Shown: piece after piece, positions 2,890 through 64,000 of the stretch
Numbering within the stretch: position 1 is the stretch's first letter
Layout: each line of letters starts with the position of its first letter
NCBI GenBank assembly: GCA_033558025.1
Contig: JAUCEF010000011.1
Span: 2,108,001-2,172,000, forward strand
Source: Phytophthora sp. 'mugwort'
Taxonomy: Eukaryota; Oomycota; Peronosporomycetes; Peronosporales; Peronosporaceae
Length of the DNA stretch: 64,000 nt
Reading direction: 5' to 3'
Program-made: the position numbers and the translations under genes
The notes under the pieces: model-generated
Database searches by the model: none
What the model was told of the DNA's origin: nothing
Seen by the model: the letters and a program-made list of their open reading frames with translations, nothing else

Positions 2890-3343
2890 GTGCCAAATAC
2901 TGCATGTCTCTGATTACGTAACGCACTGATCCTACAGGTAGTGCGGAGTCCAAGTGCATGATCATGAAGTCGGACGCGTCACTGAGCTTTTCCTGTCCGT
3001 GCCACCTCCGCTCTACCAGGATGGCTGATTAATATCCACGAAGCTGAGGGTTTCCCAACTTGCCGTGGTGAACGTATTTTGCTAGAGAGGGGGCAGATAA
3101 CACCTCGTCAGTTACAAGGCCAATACTGGTGCCGACCATATTTCCCCAGAAAAAATGGCCTCGGACAAAGCCAGTGACCTCCCTGTATTCAGCGCCGCGT
3201 CCTTTCGGGTAACCGTATTCGAGGTGTCGATACTACACCAGAAAGCCGAAGCAAAATATCTACGTCAGTTCCGCGCCTTTCGAGGGTGTAGGGGGTTGTT
3301 GCTAGCACAGTGGAAAACGTAGCCCGTGGTCTCGCAAGCTAAT
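2890..3343. other. Gap between the thioesterase pseudogene and the ABCG gene
   Basis: About 450 bp that must hold the 5' region of the ABCG gene starting at 3344. An Inr-like string TCAGTTCC lies near 3266, with one mismatch to the oomycete YTCANTYY consensus because it is preceded by G. No ORF or repeat is recognised. Confidence 0.35.
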
Positions 3344-5491
3344 ATGCGTGGACGACTTGGAGGCTCCATGGCCGACACGTGCATCTCGAGTAACACGCCG
3401 CTTACGCCGCTTGCGAATGACCCGTCAGGCGAGATCTCCGTCACTTCGTCTGGTGCCAACAACAACACCGACCTCGAGACTGGCCATCGATGTAGTCTCA
3501 CGACACCAAAAAGCGAACTGAGTTCACCTTCCTGCACGGTCGATGCCCATTACGGCTGTCTCGATACGATCGCTGCAGACATCATTGGGCCGCATGGTAT
3601 GAACGCAGAGAGCAAGGGCAAAGGCAAATCGTTCGACTTTACGTCCGAATTTGAAGCCACGCAGCGTCGACAACGTGACGCCTTGCACCAGTGTACCATA
3701 AGTTGGCGGCACATTTCGTACCTTATTCAGCCCAAGAAACCGTGGCGTTCAGGCCGACTGGGATGCAGCAGGAAGACGGAGAGAATTATGACTTTCAGGC
3801 AGCAGCCTCGCAAGATCCTTAGCAATGTATGGGGGCGATCGGGTCCTGGAGACCTCACAGCTATCATTGGTCCTTCGGGAGCGGGGAAGACGACTCTACT
3901 GGACATTCTAGCGGATCGAGTCCCCCCTGGAGGTCCCGATGTACGCGTCGAAGGAATTGTAGACGTGAACGGCCGACCTCGAGACCCACGCTCCTTCCAC
4001 TTTATCATGAATTACGTCTCACAGGACATGGCGTTCCTCGGATCCTTTTCGGTGTTGGAGACTTTGCAGATCGCAGCAGGCCTTGGTCTACCAAGTCACG
4101 TCCCTCCTCTCACACGGGAGTCTCGTGTCCAGGATGTGATCGACGCGATGGGATTACGGACGTGTATGTACGCAACTGTTGGCGATGTGTTTCACAAAGG
4201 TATCTCGTCAGGCCAACGCAAACGACTCGGCATTGCCGTGGAATTGCTCTCCGATCCAGCTTTGCTGCTGCTGGACGAGCCAACGTCGGGTCTCGACGCG
4301 TCCTCAGCTCGCAGTGTGATGCAGCACATTGCACGACTTTGCCACAAAAGCGGCAAGAACGTCATTTGCACGATCCACCAGCCATCGTCTTCCGTGTACG
4401 AAATGCTGACAAACCTCGTCATCTTGAGCGACGGTGAGCTCGTGTACTTTGGACCGACGTCAGCTATGCTGACGCATTTCTTTTCGCTGAGCTACGTGTG
4501 TCCCATGTACTCGAATCCGGCCGAGTACTTTGTTGACTTGGTGAACAAGGATTTCCACCCTCGTTTGAAGCTCGACTCGTTCGTGAAAGCACTGGAAGAA
4601 AGCTCGCAGCTGCAGCGTCTGCGTGTCGAGATCGCGCGCGATCGCTCCATGCGCGACTTGTGTCCCATGAATTACGACATGCTGCGAGCGATGCGTCCAT
4701 CACGACGGGACCAATTCTCGGTTCTGTTGCATCGAAACGTGACCAACAATTGGCGCCACCCCGGCGTCTTCTGGCTCCGTGTCCTCATGTACATGCTGCT
4801 GTCGTTCATGGTCGGCACCATGTACTTGAGCTCGAATCGCGCAATCACAAGTGCCGCCATGGTGCCGCTCCTCTTCTACGTGCAAGCCTTCCTGGTCTTC
4901 ATGTCTGTCGCGGCGCTGCCAGCTTTGTTTGAGCAACGCGCTGTACTGGAACGGGAAGTACGCTCTCATTCGCTGCATCTAGCAAGCTACACAGTCGCCA
5001 ATCTGCTTGGAGCCCTGCCTGGTATTGCCTTGATCTCGCTCTTGGCGTCCTTGATCGTTGTCTACTTCGCCCACGTGCACTCGTTCGGCTCCTTTCTCGT
5101 TAACTTGACGCTGTCGCTCGTGACCGCGGAGTCGATGATGCATTTGCTGGGGGCTGCCGTGCCACACTATATCATGGGCATCGCAATGGGGGCCGGTCTC
5201 TTTGGCATGTTTATGCTGTGTGAAGGGTTCATGGTTCCGTTTGCCTCCATCCCAGCGTACTGGAAATGGGGCTACTACATGGCATTCCACACGTATTCAT
5301 TCGAGTCATTCATGTACGAGCACTTCTCGCAGCTTGATACGCAGGAGGCTTGGCGCGTGCTGACAAGTTACGGCATGGAAAACGTCAATGTGACGCGCAA
5401 TATGCTCATTCTCGTCGGATATGCCGCAGTTCTACAGCTCGCAAGTGTCGTCGTGCTCTTCGTACGATTCGGACGTCATAGGCACCGCTAA
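3344..5491 (+). CDS. Half-size ABC transporter, ABCG (WHITE/WBC) subfamily
   Basis: An ATP-driven membrane exporter half-molecule that should pair to form a full transporter. The frame is open from a GTG at 3326, so the first ATG (3344) or the one at 3368 is the likely start, giving 715 or 707 residues. The order is nucleotide-binding domain first, then membrane domain, as in ABCG. Visible motifs: Walker A GPSGAGKTT (about 3868), ABC signature SSGQRKRLG, Walker B LLLLDEPTSGLD and the switch histidine in CTIHQPSS. The second half carries about six hydrophobic segments (for example LRVLMYMLLSFMVGTMYL and LGALPGIALISLLASLIVVY). The N-terminal 130 residues are polar and low in complexity. No intron is apparent. 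A close paralogue is at 34743-36875 and a truncated copy at 8965-9556. The substrate cannot be told; sterols, lipids and xenobiotics are typical for the family. Confidence 0.93.
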   Translation: MRGRLGGSMADTCISSNTPLTPLANDPSGEISVTSSGANNNTDLETGHRCSLTTPKSELSSPSCTVDAHYGCLDTIAADIIGPHGMNAESKGKGKSFDFTSEFEATQRRQRDALHQCTISWRHISYLIQPKKPWRSGRLGCSRKTERIMTFRQQPRKILSNVWGRSGPGDLTAIIGPSGAGKTTLLDILADRVPPGGPDVRVEGIVDVNGRPRDPRSFHFIMNYVSQDMAFLGSFSVLETLQIAAGLGLPSHVPPLTRESRVQDVIDAMGLRTCMYATVGDVFHKGISSGQRKRLGIAVELLSDPALLLLDEPTSGLDASSARSVMQHIARLCHKSGKNVICTIHQPSSSVYEMLTNLVILSDGELVYFGPTSAMLTHFFSLSYVCPMYSNPAEYFVDLVNKDFHPRLKLDSFVKALEESSQLQRLRVEIARDRSMRDLCPMNYDMLRAMRPSRRDQFSVLLHRNVTNNWRHPGVFWLRVLMYMLLSFMVGTMYLSSNRAITSAAMVPLLFYVQAFLVFMSVAALPALFEQRAVLEREVRSHSLHLASYTVANLLGALPGIALISLLASLIVVYFAHVHSFGSFLVNLTLSLVTAESMMHLLGAAVPHYIMGIAMGAGLFGMFMLCEGFMVPFASIPAYWKWGYYMAFHTYSFESFMYEHFSQLDTQEAWRVLTSYGMENVNVTRNMLILVGYAAVLQLASVVVLFVRFGRHRHR

Positions 5492-34742: not shown

Positions 34743-36875
34743 ATGCACTCGGACGGCAGGCCACCCGTGCTCCGACAGGTCTCAAGTTCGAGCCATACGC
34801 CCCTGAGCTCCGACGGATCCGAGACCACGGCGGTACTCGGGGCCCACATGTCGTCAAACGACCTCGAACGCAGTCGCACGGCGCTGGACCAAAGCGGATT
34901 GATGTCGCCCGAGATCTCGTACGAAAACCTGGACACCGTCAAGGGCCCAGCGCCGCACGCCTTCAGCAACAACAACGTGCCGGTGAATCCCAAGGTCGCG
35001 CTCTTTGACGGCGACTCGCAGCTCTCGACCGAGGGGTTCCGCCAGCGCGCGGCACTGCAGACCTGCTCCATCAGTTGGCAGCACATCTCGTTCTTCATCC
35101 AGCCCAAGGAAAAGGCGCTTGCACGTCTCCGCAACAACAGCAAGCGCGGATCAGGTCCGTCCGGACTCGAGGCGCAGTTTGAGCGTCAGCAGCCCCGCAA
35201 GATTCTCAACAACGTCTGGGGCCGATCGGGACCGGGCGAGTTGACGGCCATTTTGGGTCCGTCTGGTGCCGGTAAGACCACACTTCTCGATATGCTTGCG
35301 GATCGAGTGCTATCGGGAGGCTCTGGCGTGCATCTGGAGGGACTTGTGGAGGTGAACGGCCAGCCTCGTGACCTTCGTACGTTCCACTCCATTATGAACT
35401 ACGTGTCAGAAGACATGGCATTCCTTGGCGCCTTTACAGTTTTAGAGACCTTGCAGATCGGTGCCGGTCTAAGTCTGCCTGGTCACATGCCCCCTGTCCA
35501 GCGGGAAGCCCGTGTTCAAGATGTGATCGACGCTATGGGTCTCCGATCGTGCTCTAACGCTCGTGTGGGCGACGTCTTCCACAAGGGCATTTCGTCTGGT
35601 CAACGCAAGCGTCTGGGTATCGCATTGGAGCTTCTTTCGGACCCGGCTTTGCTGCTTCTGGATGAACCTACCTCAGGTCTGGATTCGTCTTCAGCTCGCG
35701 GTGTCATGCAGTACATTGTGCGGCTATGCCAAGAAGGTGGCAAGAACGTCGTGTGCACGATCCACCAGCCTTCATCTTCCATCTACAGCATGCTCACTAA
35801 CCTCGTCATCCTAAGTGGCGGTGAACTCGTGTATAGTGGCCCTACCAACGCAGCAATTGCCCACTTCTTCTCAATGGGCTACGTGTGCCCCATGTACACA
35901 AACCCAGCTGAGTATTTTATCCACTTGGTGAACACCAATTTCCACGACGGCTTGAAGCTCGAGCCGTTCACTCGTGCACTGAAGGAAAGTGCCGAGCCGC
36001 AGCGTCTCCGTGCCGATGTCTTGCGCGATCGTTCTCGTCGTGATCACCTGGCCAACCCTGAACTCCTAAAGGCAATGCGGCCGTGGCCGACGGACCAGTT
36101 CTTTGTGCTCGTAAAGCGTAACCTGACCAACAACTGGCGGCATCCGGGTGTCTTTTGGCTGCGTGTGCTCATGTACGTGCTGCTGTCGCTCATGGTGGGC
36201 ACCATGTACTTGAGCTCCAACAAGGAGATTAAAGACGTGTCGATGGTGCCGCTGCTCTTCTACGTACAAGCTTTCCTGGTATTCATGTCCGTCGCAGCTC
36301 TTCCGGCTCTGCTGGAACACCGAGCAGTGATGGAGCGTGAAATGCGCTCGTACGCGTTGTCTCTAACGGGTTACACCATGTCCAATTTGCTGGCTTCATT
36401 GCCCGGTATCCTGCTTATTTCCGTGCTGGCATCGGCTATTGTGGTGTTCTTGGCCAACGTCAACTCGTTCCCGACCTTCCTCCTCAACCTGACGCTGTCG
36501 CTGATCGCTGCCGAGTCTCTGATGCACTTGCTTGGCGCGGCTGTGCCTCATTATATCATGGGGATTGCTCTTGGTGCCGGTCTTTTCGGGATGTTTATGC
36601 TTTGCGAAGGCTTCATGGTACCGTTCGCCGACATGCCTGTATACTGGAAGTGGGGCTATTACATCGCGTTCCACACGTACTCGTTCGAGTCGTTCATGTA
36701 CGAACACTTTTCGAAAGTGGATACACCAGATGCTTGGAACCTGCTCAAGAGCTACGGCATGGACAATGTCAACATCGTGCAGGACATGATTATTCTGGCG
36801 TGCTATTCGGTGGTATTGCAGATTCTCGTCATTGGCGTGCTCTTCCTCCGTTTCAACCGGCACCGTCGCCGCTAA
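34743..36875 (+). CDS. Half-size ABC transporter, ABCG (WHITE/WBC) subfamily, paralogue 2
   Basis: 710 residues from ATG 34743 with no intron. The plan matches the gene at 3344-5491: a nucleotide-binding domain first with Walker A GPSGAGKTT (about 35258), signature SSGQRKRLG, Walker B LLLLDEPTSGLD and CTIHQPSS. A membrane half of about six segments follows, including LRVLMYVLLSLMVGTMYL and LASLPGILLISVLASAIVVF. The C-terminus ends in a basic FNRHRRR (FGRHRHR in the paralogue). The most variable part is the first 130 residues, where the two proteins share little beyond the SISW(R/Q)HIS(Y/F) segment. The two may homodimerise or pair with each other. It converges on RNR1 with 470 bp between stops. 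Confidence 0.95.
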   Translation: MHSDGRPPVLRQVSSSSHTPLSSDGSETTAVLGAHMSSNDLERSRTALDQSGLMSPEISYENLDTVKGPAPHAFSNNNVPVNPKVALFDGDSQLSTEGFRQRAALQTCSISWQHISFFIQPKEKALARLRNNSKRGSGPSGLEAQFERQQPRKILNNVWGRSGPGELTAILGPSGAGKTTLLDMLADRVLSGGSGVHLEGLVEVNGQPRDLRTFHSIMNYVSEDMAFLGAFTVLETLQIGAGLSLPGHMPPVQREARVQDVIDAMGLRSCSNARVGDVFHKGISSGQRKRLGIALELLSDPALLLLDEPTSGLDSSSARGVMQYIVRLCQEGGKNVVCTIHQPSSSIYSMLTNLVILSGGELVYSGPTNAAIAHFFSMGYVCPMYTNPAEYFIHLVNTNFHDGLKLEPFTRALKESAEPQRLRADVLRDRSRRDHLANPELLKAMRPWPTDQFFVLVKRNLTNNWRHPGVFWLRVLMYVLLSLMVGTMYLSSNKEIKDVSMVPLLFYVQAFLVFMSVAALPALLEHRAVMEREMRSYALSLTGYTMSNLLASLPGILLISVLASAIVVFLANVNSFPTFLLNLTLSLIAAESLMHLLGAAVPHYIMGIALGAGLFGMFMLCEGFMVPFADMPVYWKWGYYIAFHTYSFESFMYEHFSKVDTPDAWNLLKSYGMDNVNIVQDMIILACYSVVLQILVIGVLFLRFNRHRRR

Positions 36876-37345: not shown

Positions 37346-39739
37346 TTAAGCTCCGCATACAAGGCAATCGTCCTCGTCGTCCCCTGCCCGAGTTACTTTC
37401 TCGATGGTCGTGATTGGGGCAGGAGGAGCCGCAGCCTTCACAGCCTCTTCCTTGGCGCGTTGCTGGTCGAGTCCCTGCTTGTCCACAGTGAACTGGATGG
37501 CGTCGGCTTTCGGACGTCCGCGCATGTAGTACATGCCCGTCTTAAGCCCCTTTTTCCAGGCGTAGAAGTGCATGGATGTGAGTTTGCTGATCGTGGGGTC
37601 GGCGATGTGGATGTTAAGCGACTGACTCTGGCAAATGTAGGCACCACGGTCAGCCGACAAGTCCAAAATGGCCTTTTGCTTGATCTCCCACACCGTCTTG
37701 TACTTCTCCTTGATATTGGCCGGGATAGTCTTGACCATCTGCACAGACCCACCGTCGTTTAGAATCTGGTTACGCACCTCTGGCGTCCAGATGCCCAGGT
37801 CGATCAGCTCGTTCATCAAGTACTTGTTCACAATAGTGAACTCACCAGCAAGCACACGGCGGTTGTACATGTTCGACGTGAACGGCTCAATAGACTCGTT
37901 ATTGCCCAGGATCTGAGCAGTAGAAGCCGTCGGCATGGGAGCTACAAGCAGCGAGTTGCGAATCCCGTGCTTAATCACGTTCTCTTTAAGCGCAGCCCAG
38001 TCCCACAGACCTGACGAAGGCGTCACCCTCCACATGTCGAACTGGAAGATCCCCTTGCTGGCTGGTGAACCCTGGAACGTCTCATACGGACCTAGTTCCT
38101 TAGCAATCTCCATTGACGTCTCCATGGATGCGTAGTAGATAGTCTCAAAGATGTTCTTGTTCAACTCGCGGGCCTGTTGGCTCTCAAACGCGTAGTTCAT
38201 CAGGATGAACGCATCGGCTAGACCCTGTACACCAATACCAACGGGGCGGTGACGCATGTTGGACTTGCGCGCCTCCTCCACGGGGTAGTAGTTGACATCA
38301 ATGACCTTGTTCAAGTTGCGAGTCACAACCTTAACCACCTTGTACAGCTTCTGGTAGTCAAACACACCGTTGTCCACGAACTTAGGGAGCGCCACAGATG
38401 CCAGGTTGCAAACAGCCACCTCATCGGGTGACGTGTACTCCATCACCTCACAGCACAAATTACTAGAACGGATCGTTCCAAGGTTCTGCTGGTTGGACTT
38501 GCGGTTGGCCGCGTCCTTGTACAGCATGAAAGGCACGCCCGTCTCAATCTGGGCATCTAGGATAGCGAACCACAGTTGCTGGGCGTTAATGGTCTTGCGA
38601 GCACGTCCCTCTTGCTCGTACTTTTCGTACAGTATCTCAAACTCGTCACCCCAGCACTCGTAGAGTCCAGGAGCTTCATTGGGGCAAAATAAGCTCCACT
38701 TGCCATTAGACTCCACCCTCTTCATGAAGAGATCCGGAACCCAGAGCGCGTAAAACAGGTCGCGTGCGCGGTGGAGCTCGTTACCGTGGTTCTTGCGCAG
38801 ATCCAGGAACTCGAACACGTCCGCGTGCCACGGCTCCAGGTAGATGGCGAAAGAACCCTTGCGCTTGCCTCCGCCCTGATCTACGTAGCGAGCCGTGTCG
38901 TTGAACACTCTTAACATGGGTATGATACCGTTGGACGAGCCGTTGGTACCACGAATGTAGCTGTTGGTAGCACGGATGTTGTGCATACTGATGCCGATGC
39001 CTCCAGCCCACTTGGAGATGCAGGCGCATTGCTTGAGCGTGTCGTAGATGCCCTCGATGGAGTCGTCCTGCATGGCCAGCAGGAAGCACGAGGACAGCTG
39101 TGGACGCGGCGTGCCGGCGTTGAAAAGAGTGGGGGTGGCGTGCGTGAAGAACTTCTGGCTCATAAGTTCGTACGTCTCAAGCGCGGCCTTGATGTCGTGC
39201 TTGTGGATACCCAGTGCCACGCGCATAATCATCTGCTGTGGACGCTCCACCACTTTCCCGTTCACGCGGAAAAGATAACCCCGCTCGAGGGTTTTGAAGC
39301 CAAAATAGTCGTATTCGAAGTCCCGGTCGTGGATGATTGCGGAGTTGAGCTCGTCCTTATGATCCATGACGATTTTGTAGACGTCATCGGCGATGAGCGG
39401 TGCGGCCGCGCCCGTCTTCTCGTGGACATTCTGGTGGAAGACCTCGATGTTGTCGCTAAAGACCTTGTTGGTGTTCTTATGCAGGTTAGATACGGCGATG
39501 CGCGCCGCCAGCTTGGAGAAGTCCGGGTGCTGCGTGCTCTGGCACGCGGCTGTCTCGGCTGCCAGCTCGTCCAGCTCCGAGGTGGTCACGCCCGGGTACA
39601 CGCCCGCTACAACCTTCTGCGAGATCTTGACGGCGTCAACGTAATCCGGGTTGAGCCCGTAGCAGAGCTTGGTGATGCGGGCCGTAATCTTGTCGAACTT
39701 GACAACCTCGCGACGGCCATCGCGCTTGTAGACATACAT
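37346..39739 (-). CDS. RNR1: Ribonucleoside-diphosphate reductase large subunit (class Ia)
   Basis: Catalyses reduction of all four NDPs to dNDPs with the R2 subunit, the rate-limiting step for DNA building blocks. The 797-residue frame is intron-free, with ATG at 39739. It begins with an ATP-cone (residues 1-90, [20 protein letters not shown]) that senses ATP/dATP. Active-site residues fall at the same numbers as in human RRM1: C218 (QLSSC), N427, C429 and E431 (SSNLCCE), C444 (EVAVC), and the radical-path tyrosines Y737/Y738 (GMYYMRGRP). The tail ends CLVCGA, the C-X2-C (792/795) that re-reduces the active site. Nothing is missing, so it should be functional. A small ORF starts 138 bp away on the other strand. 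Confidence 0.98.
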
Positions 39740-60589: not shown

Positions 60590-62517
60590 TCATGTTGCCG
60601 CATACGAAGGAAGTCCAAGTAGCCAAACCTTTACACATACTACTACACCATATTAGATACTTTGATCGATTGGCCGGCAATTGGGTTGGAGCGATTCAAT
60701 CGGCCCGCTTCGGAAATTTAAAGTAGAACGCACAATAGTACTAATGTGGTTAGAAAACCCCGTAACTTTCACCTATCTTAGCCAATCCGGGGCGTTTCCC
60801 CCAACTTTGACTCAGCTGTAGCGTCTTTCCACGCCAAAGTATAGAAAGTCCTCTCCACTGTGATAGTGTCGGTACCCAATACATTATTACTAACTGGAGA
60901 AATTTATAAGACGGAAATGTGTCTTAAAACTGGTACATTCTGACTTCCAGTTCGTTGTGACCGCGATTCATTAGGTCGGTTGCGACTGCAACACGGTAGT
61001 TGGTAGGCCCCAATGCTCCGTCCGCTTTTCATTGGGAAGTCAAAGAAGCCACGCGCTTTCAATAAAAGTATGGCAACCGAGCTCAACTACACAAACAGCG
61101 CCAAGCATGGATGACTCAAGCAATATTGTGAAGTAGAGAACATCCTCGCGGATGAGCCAGCGGACGAAGATTTCTGCCGTGTAGAGCCTACACGGAGAGA
61201 GAACAGTTGCGGCAAGATGGCGATGTAGGCGGTCTTGACGAAGAAGACGGTAGTGCTGCTTCTACTGGTCCGACGGCGGAGAAACTGTCCACAGAAGAGT
61301 TACGTGAGCGTCTTTTTTTCGATGGATGGCACAACTTTTCGTTATTGCCGATGCGATGGGCGTACCTTCAAGAGAGATTATCGGGCTTCGAACAATGCAG
61401 AGAGTATTTAGAGAAGGGCTTGAGCGTAAGCAAGGCCGCAAGAAGCAAAAGTTGATGTTCTACTTATTCGGACGTTCTACACCGAGTGGACCTTAACCGT
61501 TAAGCCTCTTTGCGTAGTGATAATGAAGGCTTTGTATCACAAAACGCTAAGTAGAGGGTAGAGGCATGTTTGACTTGTGCTTGTACGGTGTTGATCATTG
61601 GGGACCCTCTCCTATCGCTCCGTGAAGTGAATCACAATTCAGAATATTACGACCGAGAGAATTGTCTGTAGCCAAATCTGAGTACAATCAGGGTAATACT
61701 GAGAGACTGTCTATACACGCCTTGGTATTTAGACTGGTCAAAAGGACCTATTGAAAAGGTTAGCACACAAATTTAAGAATATCCATGTGTACACTAGGTG
61801 CGTTTTAGATTTTAGTTGCCGCTCTCCTCGTATTGGTCCAGCAACTCACATCTCTTTTTCACGAGTGGACAGTGTTACTAAATGTCGTCCCTTATCTACG
61901 ATCTGCTACAGGTTACGGTGTTGCTGTACCCTCAGCGTCTGTAACAAACTACAGATCCCCCTAGCCAATTTAATACCTTCGGTGGAAGCTATTCGTATTA
62001 TGTACAACAACTTATTTGCTATCAGGCGCGACTGAGTATATAAACGACCGCAGGGATCGAACGCGGTTGATGACTCAACGTATTAGGTTTGATAAATTAT
62101 TATCTTACACAGCCTCCAACATTGCGAGGGGGAACTGTATTAACAATTTTTCAACTGTAAACATTTGTACATAATTGGCATACTAAAATCAGTTAAAATT
62201 AGTGTGGTAACATTTTAGCAACTCAAATGCAAACCGAAGTCTCTCAATACATGTATTTCCCTGATTGTACTCAACGTATTCAGCGTGAAGAACGCTAGGT
62301 TGCTTTTGTACATGTATTACAGGAGAGTGATGATTTCAAGATACTCCGATCTGAATCTTTGTATTCTCAGATCTGATCCCGTTGGAAACGTACGTTAGCA
62401 TGGATGCTACCATAGTGGTCATATAGAAGTGTGGAGCTCTTTTATCACTGGCTGGCAAGCAAGCCACGGTAGCGGCTGCATGTCATGTGTGCCAACTGCA
62501 CTTGACCTTTGTCCTAT
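60590..62517. other. Mostly AT-rich stretch upstream of the radical SAM gene
   Basis: A short coding-like frame at 61207-61455 (+) (TEELRERLFFDGWHNFSLLP, LQERLSGFEQCREYLEKGL) resembles transposon-tail sequence but is unassigned. From 61500 to 62500 I see no gene. Confidence 0.4.
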
Positions 62518-62532
62518 CTCATTCTTCAATTG
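62518..62532 (+). promoter_or_regulatory. Oomycete core promoter (Inr + FPR) of the radical SAM gene
   Basis: CTCATTCTTCAATTG matches the published oomycete composite GCTCATTYYNCAWTTT at nearly every position: Inr CTCATTCT, spacer T, flanking promoter region CAATTG. It lies 59 bp before the ATG at 62577, a typical distance. It also lies downstream of the earlier in-frame ATG-like start at 62487, which it therefore excludes. Confidence 0.75.
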
Positions 62533-62576
62533 CTCTCTGTCAAGTTACAAGCACAACATCCACTTCCACCAGCATC

Positions 62577-63716
62577 ATGCTGTACTTCTTGACGCTGACT
62601 CAGCGCTGCAACCTGGCCTGTACGTACTGCGGGTCGTCCGAGGAAATCGATATCGAGGATCTCGTGGACCCGATTGACTGCAAGTACGAGGTCGACGCAT
62701 TGGACAAGCTTACGACACCTCTCACGAATGAAGAGGAGCCCATGGCCATCTGCTTCTACGGTGGTGAACCGCTACTGCAGCTACGTCAGATTAAGAAGGT
62801 GATCGCTCAGCACGAGGGCAAGGCCACCAAGTTCGTGCTACAGACTAACGGCACCAAGCTTAACCGCACGCCCACGGCGGTTGTGAACAGGATGGATACC
62901 ATCTTGATCTCTGTGGATGGAGGTGAGAAGGTTACCGACACTAACCGCGGAGCGGGTACTTGGCGCCAGGCCATTGACAACGGATATTTGATTCGCAAGA
63001 ACGGCTTCAAGGGCGACTTGATTGCTCGAATGACGGTGAGTCATGTGAGCGGCGACATCTACCAGGATGTTAAGGATCTCTTCGACCTCGGCATCTTCGA
63101 CCACGTGCACTGGCAGCTCGACGCACAGTGGAGCACCCCCATGTACGCTGGCTACGAAGACCGCGGCGGTTTCCTCAAGTGGCGCGACGAAGTGTATAAC
63201 CCGTCGATCACCAAGCTTGCCACGTATTTCCGCGACACTTTGCTGAATGAGAAGAAGCTGTTGGGCATTGCACCATTCCTACCGCTGCTACACACGCTGA
63301 TCACGGGCGAGAAGGCGACACTGCGCTGTGGATCGGGTCGTGACGCGTTCAACGTGCGAACCGGTGGCGGCATCTCCGCGTGTCCGATTGCTCCCGACAG
63401 CGACTTGCAGTATGATCTGGCCCACATTAACGACGCCGACTTCACCCCGGAGAAGGTGCGCAACTCGGTCAAGATTGGTGGCCCGTGCTTGACCTGCGAA
63501 GTGAAGGATATCTGCGGCGGAAGATGTCTGTACGCGAACAAGACAATGTGGTGGGGCGAAGAAGGTTTCCTTGCGGTGTGTCAGACCGTGAAGCACCTGA
63601 TCCAGTGCATGCGTGACATCCAGCCGGACGTGGAGAGAGCCATCGCCCAGGGCATCATCGAGCTGGAGGACTTGAACTACCCCAAGTACAATAACTCGAT
63701 CGAAGTCATTCCGTAG
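62577..63716 (+). CDS. Radical SAM / SPASM-domain enzyme, probable peptide- or protein-modifying
   Basis: A 379-residue intron-free protein. Its N-terminus MLYFLTLTQRCNLACTYCGS carries the radical SAM cluster motif C11-X3-C15-X2-C18, which binds the [4Fe-4S] that cleaves S-adenosylmethionine. GGEP (62-65), QTNGT (89-93) and ISVDGG (111-116) are further radical SAM barrel motifs. The C-terminal domain has the seven-cysteine SPASM layout: C251, C269, then C304-X2-C307-X5-C313-X3-C317, and C335, which binds auxiliary clusters. This plan is typical of prokaryotic enzymes that modify peptides or proteins; from memory it is closest to an archaeal family (AF0577-type), which a search must confirm. 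The start is set by the oomycete promoter upstream. No precursor-peptide gene is visible nearby. The substrate is unknown. Confidence 0.9.
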   Translation: MLYFLTLTQRCNLACTYCGSSEEIDIEDLVDPIDCKYEVDALDKLTTPLTNEEEPMAICFYGGEPLLQLRQIKKVIAQHEGKATKFVLQTNGTKLNRTPTAVVNRMDTILISVDGGEKVTDTNRGAGTWRQAIDNGYLIRKNGFKGDLIARMTVSHVSGDIYQDVKDLFDLGIFDHVHWQLDAQWSTPMYAGYEDRGGFLKWRDEVYNPSITKLATYFRDTLLNEKKLLGIAPFLPLLHTLITGEKATLRCGSGRDAFNVRTGGGISACPIAPDSDLQYDLAHINDADFTPEKVRNSVKIGGPCLTCEVKDICGGRCLYANKTMWWGEEGFLAVCQTVKHLIQCMRDIQPDVERAIAQGIIELEDLNYPKYNNSIEVIP

Positions 63717-64000
63717 AGCAACCAGTCGTAAGAATGTCACTACCACTGCGTCTGCATACAATGAATGGAGCGTATTGTATTGCCTGCCACCACGTAACTC
63801 GCTGCTTGTCAATTGAAAAGTGTACAATGAAGAAGAACAGCGCGAATAATATAAGCGACTATCATCTTCACTCTCCATACCCCCATCCAAATGCAAATGC
63901 GAACGCGTGCCGGTGCCCTCTTCTAGCTCATGCCACGTGCCGCCAGGCCAATCGCGCTGGAAACGATGGTCACAGCGATGCAAGAAGCGCGCCAAAGCGA

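Follow-up and report, generated by a model that had tools for sequence, protein, structure and literature searches.

Near the end of the 64,000-nucleotide stretch of genome of the oomycete Phytophthora sp. 'mugwort' that was analysed here, hereafter the window, lies an intact gene for a radical S-adenosylmethionine (SAM) enzyme with a SPASM domain. The gene occupies positions 62577-63716 of the forward strand, from ATG to TAG with the stop included, and codes for 379 amino acids in a single open frame, in agreement with the claim of an earlier sequence-only reading that it has no introns. The start at 62518 given in that reading falls inside a promoter-like element, and the open reading frame (ORF) begins at 62577. 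In a profile search of the 86.26-Mb genome (154 contigs), this gene was the one match to family TIGR04084.

The enzyme and its oomycete setting

The protein matched TIGR04084 (rSAM_AF0577, NCBIfam), a curated family without known function, with 315 bits (E 5.5e-94; curated cut-off 225), residues 7-379 aligning with positions 3-347 of the 347 in the profile. Because the score lies over the cut-off and 1579 homologues were found at E<=1e-3, the match is not a chance one; the gene itself adds a member to a family already described, and the profile comparison bears out the AF0577-type assignment of the sequence-only reading. The three nearest rows among the matches listed were 94, 84 and 80% identical, and the Radical_SAM domain PF04055 scored 47.3 bits (cut-off 29.5). 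The second-best family was the PapB-type maturase model NF047865, a ranthipeptide maturase that at 106.1 bits was far below its own cut-off of 340. The models for the anaerobic sulfatase-maturating enzyme anSME (TIGR03942) and for viperin (NF038283) gave 49.7 and 48.4 bits, against cut-offs of 349.45 and 180.

The protein has cysteines at residues 11, 15, 18, 35, 59, 251, 269, 304, 307, 313, 317, 335 and 344. C11, C15 and C18 form the CX3CX2C motif (62607-62630, forward strand), by motif the ligands of the SAM-cleaving [4Fe-4S] cluster, and in an alignment of 226 rows they are cysteine in 222, with 4 gaps. The SAM-binding GGE motif lies in FYGGEP, residues 60-65 (62754-62771, forward), and the seven SPASM cysteines C251, C269, C304, C307, C313, C317 and C335 (63327-63581, forward) would be expected to hold two auxiliary clusters. 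They fit the expression CX9-15GX4C..CX2CX5CX3C..C, as the motif is defined in PMC6231123. Conservation in the 226 rows is close to complete: C251 is kept in 225, the next five cysteines in all 226, and C335 in 218 (Asp in 7). Among residues that are not ligands, H178 and W179 are kept in 225 rows and Q180, R151, W202, Y207 and P233 in 226. The complete CX3CX2C motif and SPASM set are exactly where the sequence-only reading had placed them. The archaeal members of TIGR04084 have the same cysteines and the same C-terminal tail, and by its motifs the oomycete protein, a TIGR04084/AF0577 enzyme, is predicted to bind three [4Fe-4S] clusters. Its start coincides with that of the archaeal proteins, so it is probably cytosolic.

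The upstream element at 62517-62532 (forward), 44 bp from the ATG, matches 14 of the 16 positions of the oomycete core promoter consensus (initiator/flanking promoter region, Inr/FPR). The element reported in the sequence-only reading is therefore present, but as evidence of oomycete origin it is supportive and not decisive, as the window holds 3 matches to the consensus where 0.85 would be expected, and 3 or more were reached in 4 of 100 shuffles. Better evidence against contamination comes from the contig, its elicitins and codon composition. The gene lies on a 3.84-Mb contig that bears 9 of the 44 matches in the genome to elicitins (PF00964), an oomycete family that was matched in none of 14 control genomes. 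Six of the 10 window ORFs scanned had Pfam matches, all of ordinary eukaryotic types (two ABC transporters, the large subunit of ribonucleotide reductase, two MutL fragments and a CRAL/TRIO-FYVE protein), and GC content at third codon positions (GC3) is 0.758 in the enzyme gene and 0.746 in the reductase gene of the window. Consequently contamination is unlikely, as the sequence-only reading had also held for a stray bacterial contig, and we regard the gene as a settled oomycete gene.

An antisense open frame of 236 codons (63288-63998, reverse strand) overlaps the enzyme gene and runs off the window end; with flanking sequence it is 235 amino acids from a TTG (L129:289-996). It has probably arisen as a side effect of the high GC3 of the sense gene.

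Archaeal relatives and a shared eukaryotic clade

Members of TIGR04084 are spread widely among archaea. When one genome was scanned for each species, 516 of 551 pattern matches were relatives, and the best 80 were all archaeal by title. The TIGR04084 cut-off was exceeded in at least 62 of the 196 genomes from the phylum to which an Archaeoglobaceae genome belongs, at least 53 of 121 from that of Geothermarchaeum and at least 59 of 119 from that of Heimdallarchaeum, these being draft genomes and the counts lower bounds. Sulfolobus acidocaldarius was the sole positive of 14 controls at E<=1e-50; since this archaeon, which carries the gene, is an aerobe, the family is not confined to anaerobes. 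None of 43 pattern matches in viral contigs was a relative. An apparent fusion in Lokiarchaeota (L034, a 1412-residue open frame) proved false, as a run of about 3 kb of N lies upstream at L034:6853-9942.

Eukaryotic carriers were found with a profile built from 19 eukaryotic-type rows, which gave 5889 proteins (7999 candidates scored), and the carriers that follow come from the best 120. The species-named ones among the matches listed were Anaeramoeba (two), Pelomyxa, Entamoeba (three), Tritrichomonas, Histomonas, Trichomonas and Cirrosporium; a Blastocystis carrier was found in the search with the oomycete protein itself, and three EukProt entries are presumably, by their identifiers, Pygsuia, Mastigamoeba and Euglena. 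With the oomycete protein, these 11 species-named and three EukProt rows make up 15 labelled eukaryotic rows. No animal, plant or yeast was present among the named hits in the best 120 of each search, most of which have no species name. The named eukaryotic carriers are mostly anaerobic. The copy from the fungus Cirrosporium (P0006), on a 763-kb contig of a metagenome-assembled genome (MAG), falls in the small clade of the oomycete gene (7 rows, support 100/99).

In a FastTree phylogeny of 226 rows, a 68-row clade held all 14 labelled eukaryotes and the oomycete protein (SH support 0.995), and the nearest row to it was a Thermoplasmata MAG (L057), with support of 0.319. Under an IQ-TREE mixture model with 108 rows, the 46 eukaryotic-type rows formed one clade, supported by 99 in a quick run and 100/100 in a careful one, and no named archaeon was among them. 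The eukaryotic form differs from the archaeal form of TIGR04084 in having a longer loop with a DIED-like motif, which in the oomycete protein is DIEDL, residues 25-29 (62649-62663, forward). This signature was found in 60 of 65 members of the eukaryotic clade and in 1 of 146 other rows among those fitting the loop expression (3 of 68 clade rows and 12 of 158 others did not fit it), and the median spacer from C18 to FYGG is 37 residues in the clade and 33 in the other rows. The clade is nested in a 101-row set of Asgard archaea, TACK archaea and a few Thermoplasmata MAGs (100/99). In the best tree it is sister to ten rows, named Hodarchaeales among them, with support of 35/94.6, and neither a grouping of eukaryotes with Heimdall archaea (p-AU, from the approximately unbiased test, 0.36) nor one with TACK, Njord and Baldr archaea (0.18) was rejected. 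As these alternative archaeal sisters stand, we name no donor.

Monophyly of stramenopiles (oomycetes with Blastocystis) was rejected at p-AU 0.011, that of Amoebozoa (Entamoeba, Pelomyxa and the Mastigamoeba-like row) at 0.011 and that of Metamonada (Anaeramoeba with parabasalids) at 0.002; the groups are standard ones, the sets include tree-placed rows without a species label, and testing came after inspection of the tree. Because each of the three was rejected, the gene has probably moved between eukaryotes, and the simplest reading of the trees would be a single archaeal origin followed by transfers among eukaryotes. The sequence-only reading had suggested acquisition by transfer, and named a place inside a broad, vertically inherited eukaryotic clade of known function as evidence to the contrary. 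The archaeal descent agrees with acquisition, although the gene is not private to the oomycete and belongs to a clade common to many eukaryotes; the position inside a broad eukaryotic clade was indeed found, but in a family without known function, and purely vertical descent was rejected at three points.

An alternative history, which we consider unlikely, would have the last common eukaryotic ancestor inherit the gene from its Asgard host, with later loss from most of the aerobic lineages and no transfer at all. The single eukaryotic clade is what this history predicts, as is a sister group that includes Hodarchaeales, though at the low support given above, and the species-named carriers span metamonads, Amoebozoa, stramenopiles and a fungus, a range that widens if the EukProt identifiers have been read correctly. 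The three rejections of monophyly speak against it, however, as do the other archaeal sisters that were not rejected and the mostly anaerobic habit of the named carriers.

Auxiliary clusters, C-terminal tail and gene neighbours

According to PMC6231123, both auxiliary clusters of anSME are fully ligated, whereas the sactisynthase CteB has an open site on auxiliary cluster I (Aux I) that was occupied in the crystal by a cysteine of the substrate. In the profile alignment the TIGR04084 family follows the CteB pattern, with a single cysteine on either side of the hairpin. The extra pre-hairpin cysteine of anSMEcpe is absent from the family, and the oomycete protein has no cysteine between residues 59 and 251. 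Three cysteines can be assigned to Aux I, as in CteB (5wgg/5why). From this pattern, an open Aux I site in the family seems a reasonable inference. The likeness to CteB has limits, since identity is 22% and the alignment stops at residue 353, short of the tail. Furthermore, CteB has an N-terminal RiPP recognition element (RRE), the peptide-binding domain that is present in the three maturases of ribosomally synthesized and post-translationally modified peptides (RiPPs) whose structures are compared in PMC6231123, and a precursor peptide.

In the C-terminal tail YPKYNNSIEVIP, residues 368-379 (63678-63713, forward), none of the 226 rows departs from Y368, E376 and P379, and in a wider count Y, E and P were found at these positions in 264 of 265 full-length sequences. 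The lone exception, a Baldrarchaeota copy (L029:10001-11088), has a frame change just before the tail and three in-frame TAA, for which a sequencing indel seems a likelier explanation than recoding of stop codons. In structural overlays, for which the aligned ranges give the first and last aligned residue only, eight viperin-family entries (six titled with cytidine or uridine triphosphate, CTP/UTP) aligned to residue 373-374 of the oomycete model (355 of an archaeal model), and a BtrN complex to 376 (358). Viperin entries with S-adenosylhomocysteine or with deoxyadenosine and methionine (5vsl, 5vsm) stopped at 296-298 (278). Viperin 6b4c breaks the ligand-free pattern, with 325 in one run and 361 in the other, and BlsE (374/356) and His-tagged anSMEcpe 4k36 (374/355) reach the tail as well. 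The C-terminal segments of viperin and BtrN thus overlay the tail in substrate-bound entries, a likeness of tail arrangement only; the oomycete protein scores below the cut-off of the viperin model, and viperin is not known to have a SPASM domain. From these models the tail probably lies over the active site. In PMC8124187, simulations of QueE show a C-terminal tail tightening on the substrate. The tripeptide [LIM][DES][WF], given in PMC10623007 as a targeting signal for cytosolic iron-sulfur assembly, matched none of 68 tails, and we discarded this role.

Gene neighbourhood did not provide a key to function, as most recurring neighbours are lineage-bound and they point to no single pathway. 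Among 124 archaeal loci, the largest shared cluster comprises 16, all Heimdall-type. Others, several of them named presumptively from sequence, are CofE in Archaeoglobaceae, CofD in a single Heimdall subclade, leuS in five loci of the Thermoproteota phylum, rps13/rps4/rpoD in DHVE2 and Nop in two loci; as an exception to the lineage-bound pattern, an ABC-transporter ATPase (c12) recurs in 8 loci of mixed lineages at varying distance. The 105 close codirectional neighbours fell into 51 clusters, and no Pfam family occurred in more than two of the 48 scanned (the three outside the scan are L043:2603-5677, L072:6137-6451 and L114:2606-2902). No neighbour common to most archaeal lineages was found that might be a precursor gene. 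None was seen beside the oomycete gene either, as the sequence-only reading had noted, in ORF listings that did not include a dedicated small-peptide search. As a separate observation, F420 genes lie beside the enzyme in two lineages (L069:2082-2849, L028:11144-12121): the F420 ligase CofE is directly upstream in Archaeoglobaceae, and a gene that we take from its sequence to be CofD-like is downstream on the other strand in the Heimdall subclade.

Proposed reaction and candidate substrates

We propose, tentatively and at somewhat less than even confidence, that the enzyme performs a radical modification, a thioether or a related one, of a conserved cellular protein, and that its gene had one archaeal origin and then spread from eukaryote to eukaryote. 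The C11/C15/C18 cluster would split SAM to give a 5'-deoxyadenosyl radical, which would take a hydrogen from a residue of the protein held between this cluster and Aux I. The open iron of the three-cysteine Aux I would, as in CteB, bind a substrate thiolate, the auxiliary clusters would accept an electron, and the product would be a thioether or related side-chain modification. The invariant tail (Y368, E376, P379) would close the active site, with E376 possibly acting as base or ligand. A single origin within the Asgard/TACK portion of the archaea would have given rise to the eukaryotic form, which would then have been handed on between eukaryotic lineages. Established here are the motifs, the family, the predicted fold, the archaeal descent and the shared eukaryotic clade; the mechanism is inferred. 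We lean slightly to a protein over a small molecule as substrate because of the SPASM domain and because the closest relatives act on peptides.

Several observations weigh against this proposal. The thioether chemistry would be borrowed from relatives at 18-22% identity, and E376 or another residue could fill the Aux I site; closure by E376 would remove the analogy with CteB. No RRE was found in the oomycete model, whose first barrel strand is residues 2-8, and a tail over the active site would recall small-molecule enzymes. Covariation of tail and barrel, with pairs ranked 11th, 18th and 21st of 56,425, was rejected as evidence of contact, since 30 simulated alignments equal it by phylogeny alone (best real pair 0.298; simulated mean 0.290, largest 0.427). 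Of the 46 rows in the eukaryotic clade, 31 have no species label and owe their place in the group to the first tree, which leaves the 15 labelled rows as independent evidence. Finally, in 10 loci from two phyla (6 DHVE2, 4 euryarchaeal) the enzyme gene has next to it, in the same direction, a gene that we named by eye as metallophosphoesterase-like (c6); it lies on opposite sides of the enzyme gene in the two groups (L056:11103-11822, L089-L092).

A small-molecule substrate, a metabolite or nucleotide over which the tail would fold without any protein partner, as in MoaA, viperin, BtrN or QueE, is a serious, if somewhat less likely, alternative. The tail residues identical in every row, the alignment of the tail with the CTP/UTP viperins and the BtrN complex and not with 5vsl and 5vsm, and the QueE simulations in PMC8124187 are all consistent with it, as is the failure to find an RRE in the model, a precursor in the ORF listings or a widely conserved neighbour in the 124 loci. 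However, the full seven-cysteine SPASM motif and the peptide or protein substrates of the nearest relatives argue for a protein; 6b4c breaks the ligand pattern, the protein-modifying anSMEcpe 4k36 reaches equally far, and the overlays give end residues only. The peptide-modifying label of the sequence-only reading, which depends on likeness to PapB, CteB and anSME, is putative.

We consider it improbable that the enzyme matures a small precursor peptide of its own (a RiPP) from another place in the genome: the PapB-type model is the second-best family, but at under a third of its cut-off; the model has no RRE, no small gene recurs across lineages in the 124 loci, and conservation from archaea to protists would be unlike that of peptide natural-product systems. 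We give still less credence to autocatalysis, in which the tail itself would be modified into a built-in cofactor; a tail kept to its last residue in every row would suit it, but direct evidence is lacking and we know of no precedent among SPASM enzymes. A formylglycine-generating sulfatase maturase of the anSME type is the weakest candidate, and is contradicted: Asp277 of anSMEcpe (4k36-4k39), which we take to be the catalytic base, aligns with P270, proline in 226 of 226 rows; the extra Aux I cysteine is absent; and in draft genomes of the Thermoproteota phylum, where absences are soft, the sulfatase domain PF00884 occurs in 14 of 54 TIGR04084 carriers (E<=1e-50), leaving 40 with no match, against 14 of 67 others (Fisher p 0.52). 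The oomycete genome has 13 PF00884 matches. As a gene-cluster peptide is unlikely and the anSME role contradicted, a conserved protein or a small molecule remains.

More broadly, and with more reserve than for the protein modification itself, we suggest an early single entry into eukaryotes from an archaeal line, possibly the Asgard host, with the gene kept or passed among anaerobic protists, Euglena and oomycetes and with a new modification in which the tail would act in the active site. The invariant tail is common to the enzymes of Sulfolobus, Asgard archaea, an oomycete, anaerobic protists both free-living and from the gut and, it appears, Euglena, which points to an old reaction. If the proposal is true, it would be an undescribed modification of a protein or metabolite common to archaea and these eukaryotes. 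A text search for the accession TIGR04084 found no paper (gene-name matches look like chance strings by title), nor did our searches of the open-access literature find one that deals with the eukaryotic clade, its loop signature or the unvarying C-terminal tail. The gene also offers a case for tracing the spread of an archaeal gene through eukaryotes, and the substrate question can be approached directly, as S. acidocaldarius, a well-studied archaeon, is a carrier.

Elsewhere in the window, the ribonucleotide reductase large subunit, with an ATP cone, is coded at 37346-39739 on the reverse strand in a single open frame of 797 amino acids (barrel domain 737 bits), and two ABC2-type transporter genes of similar build lie at 3326-5491 and 34743-36875, both on the forward strand.
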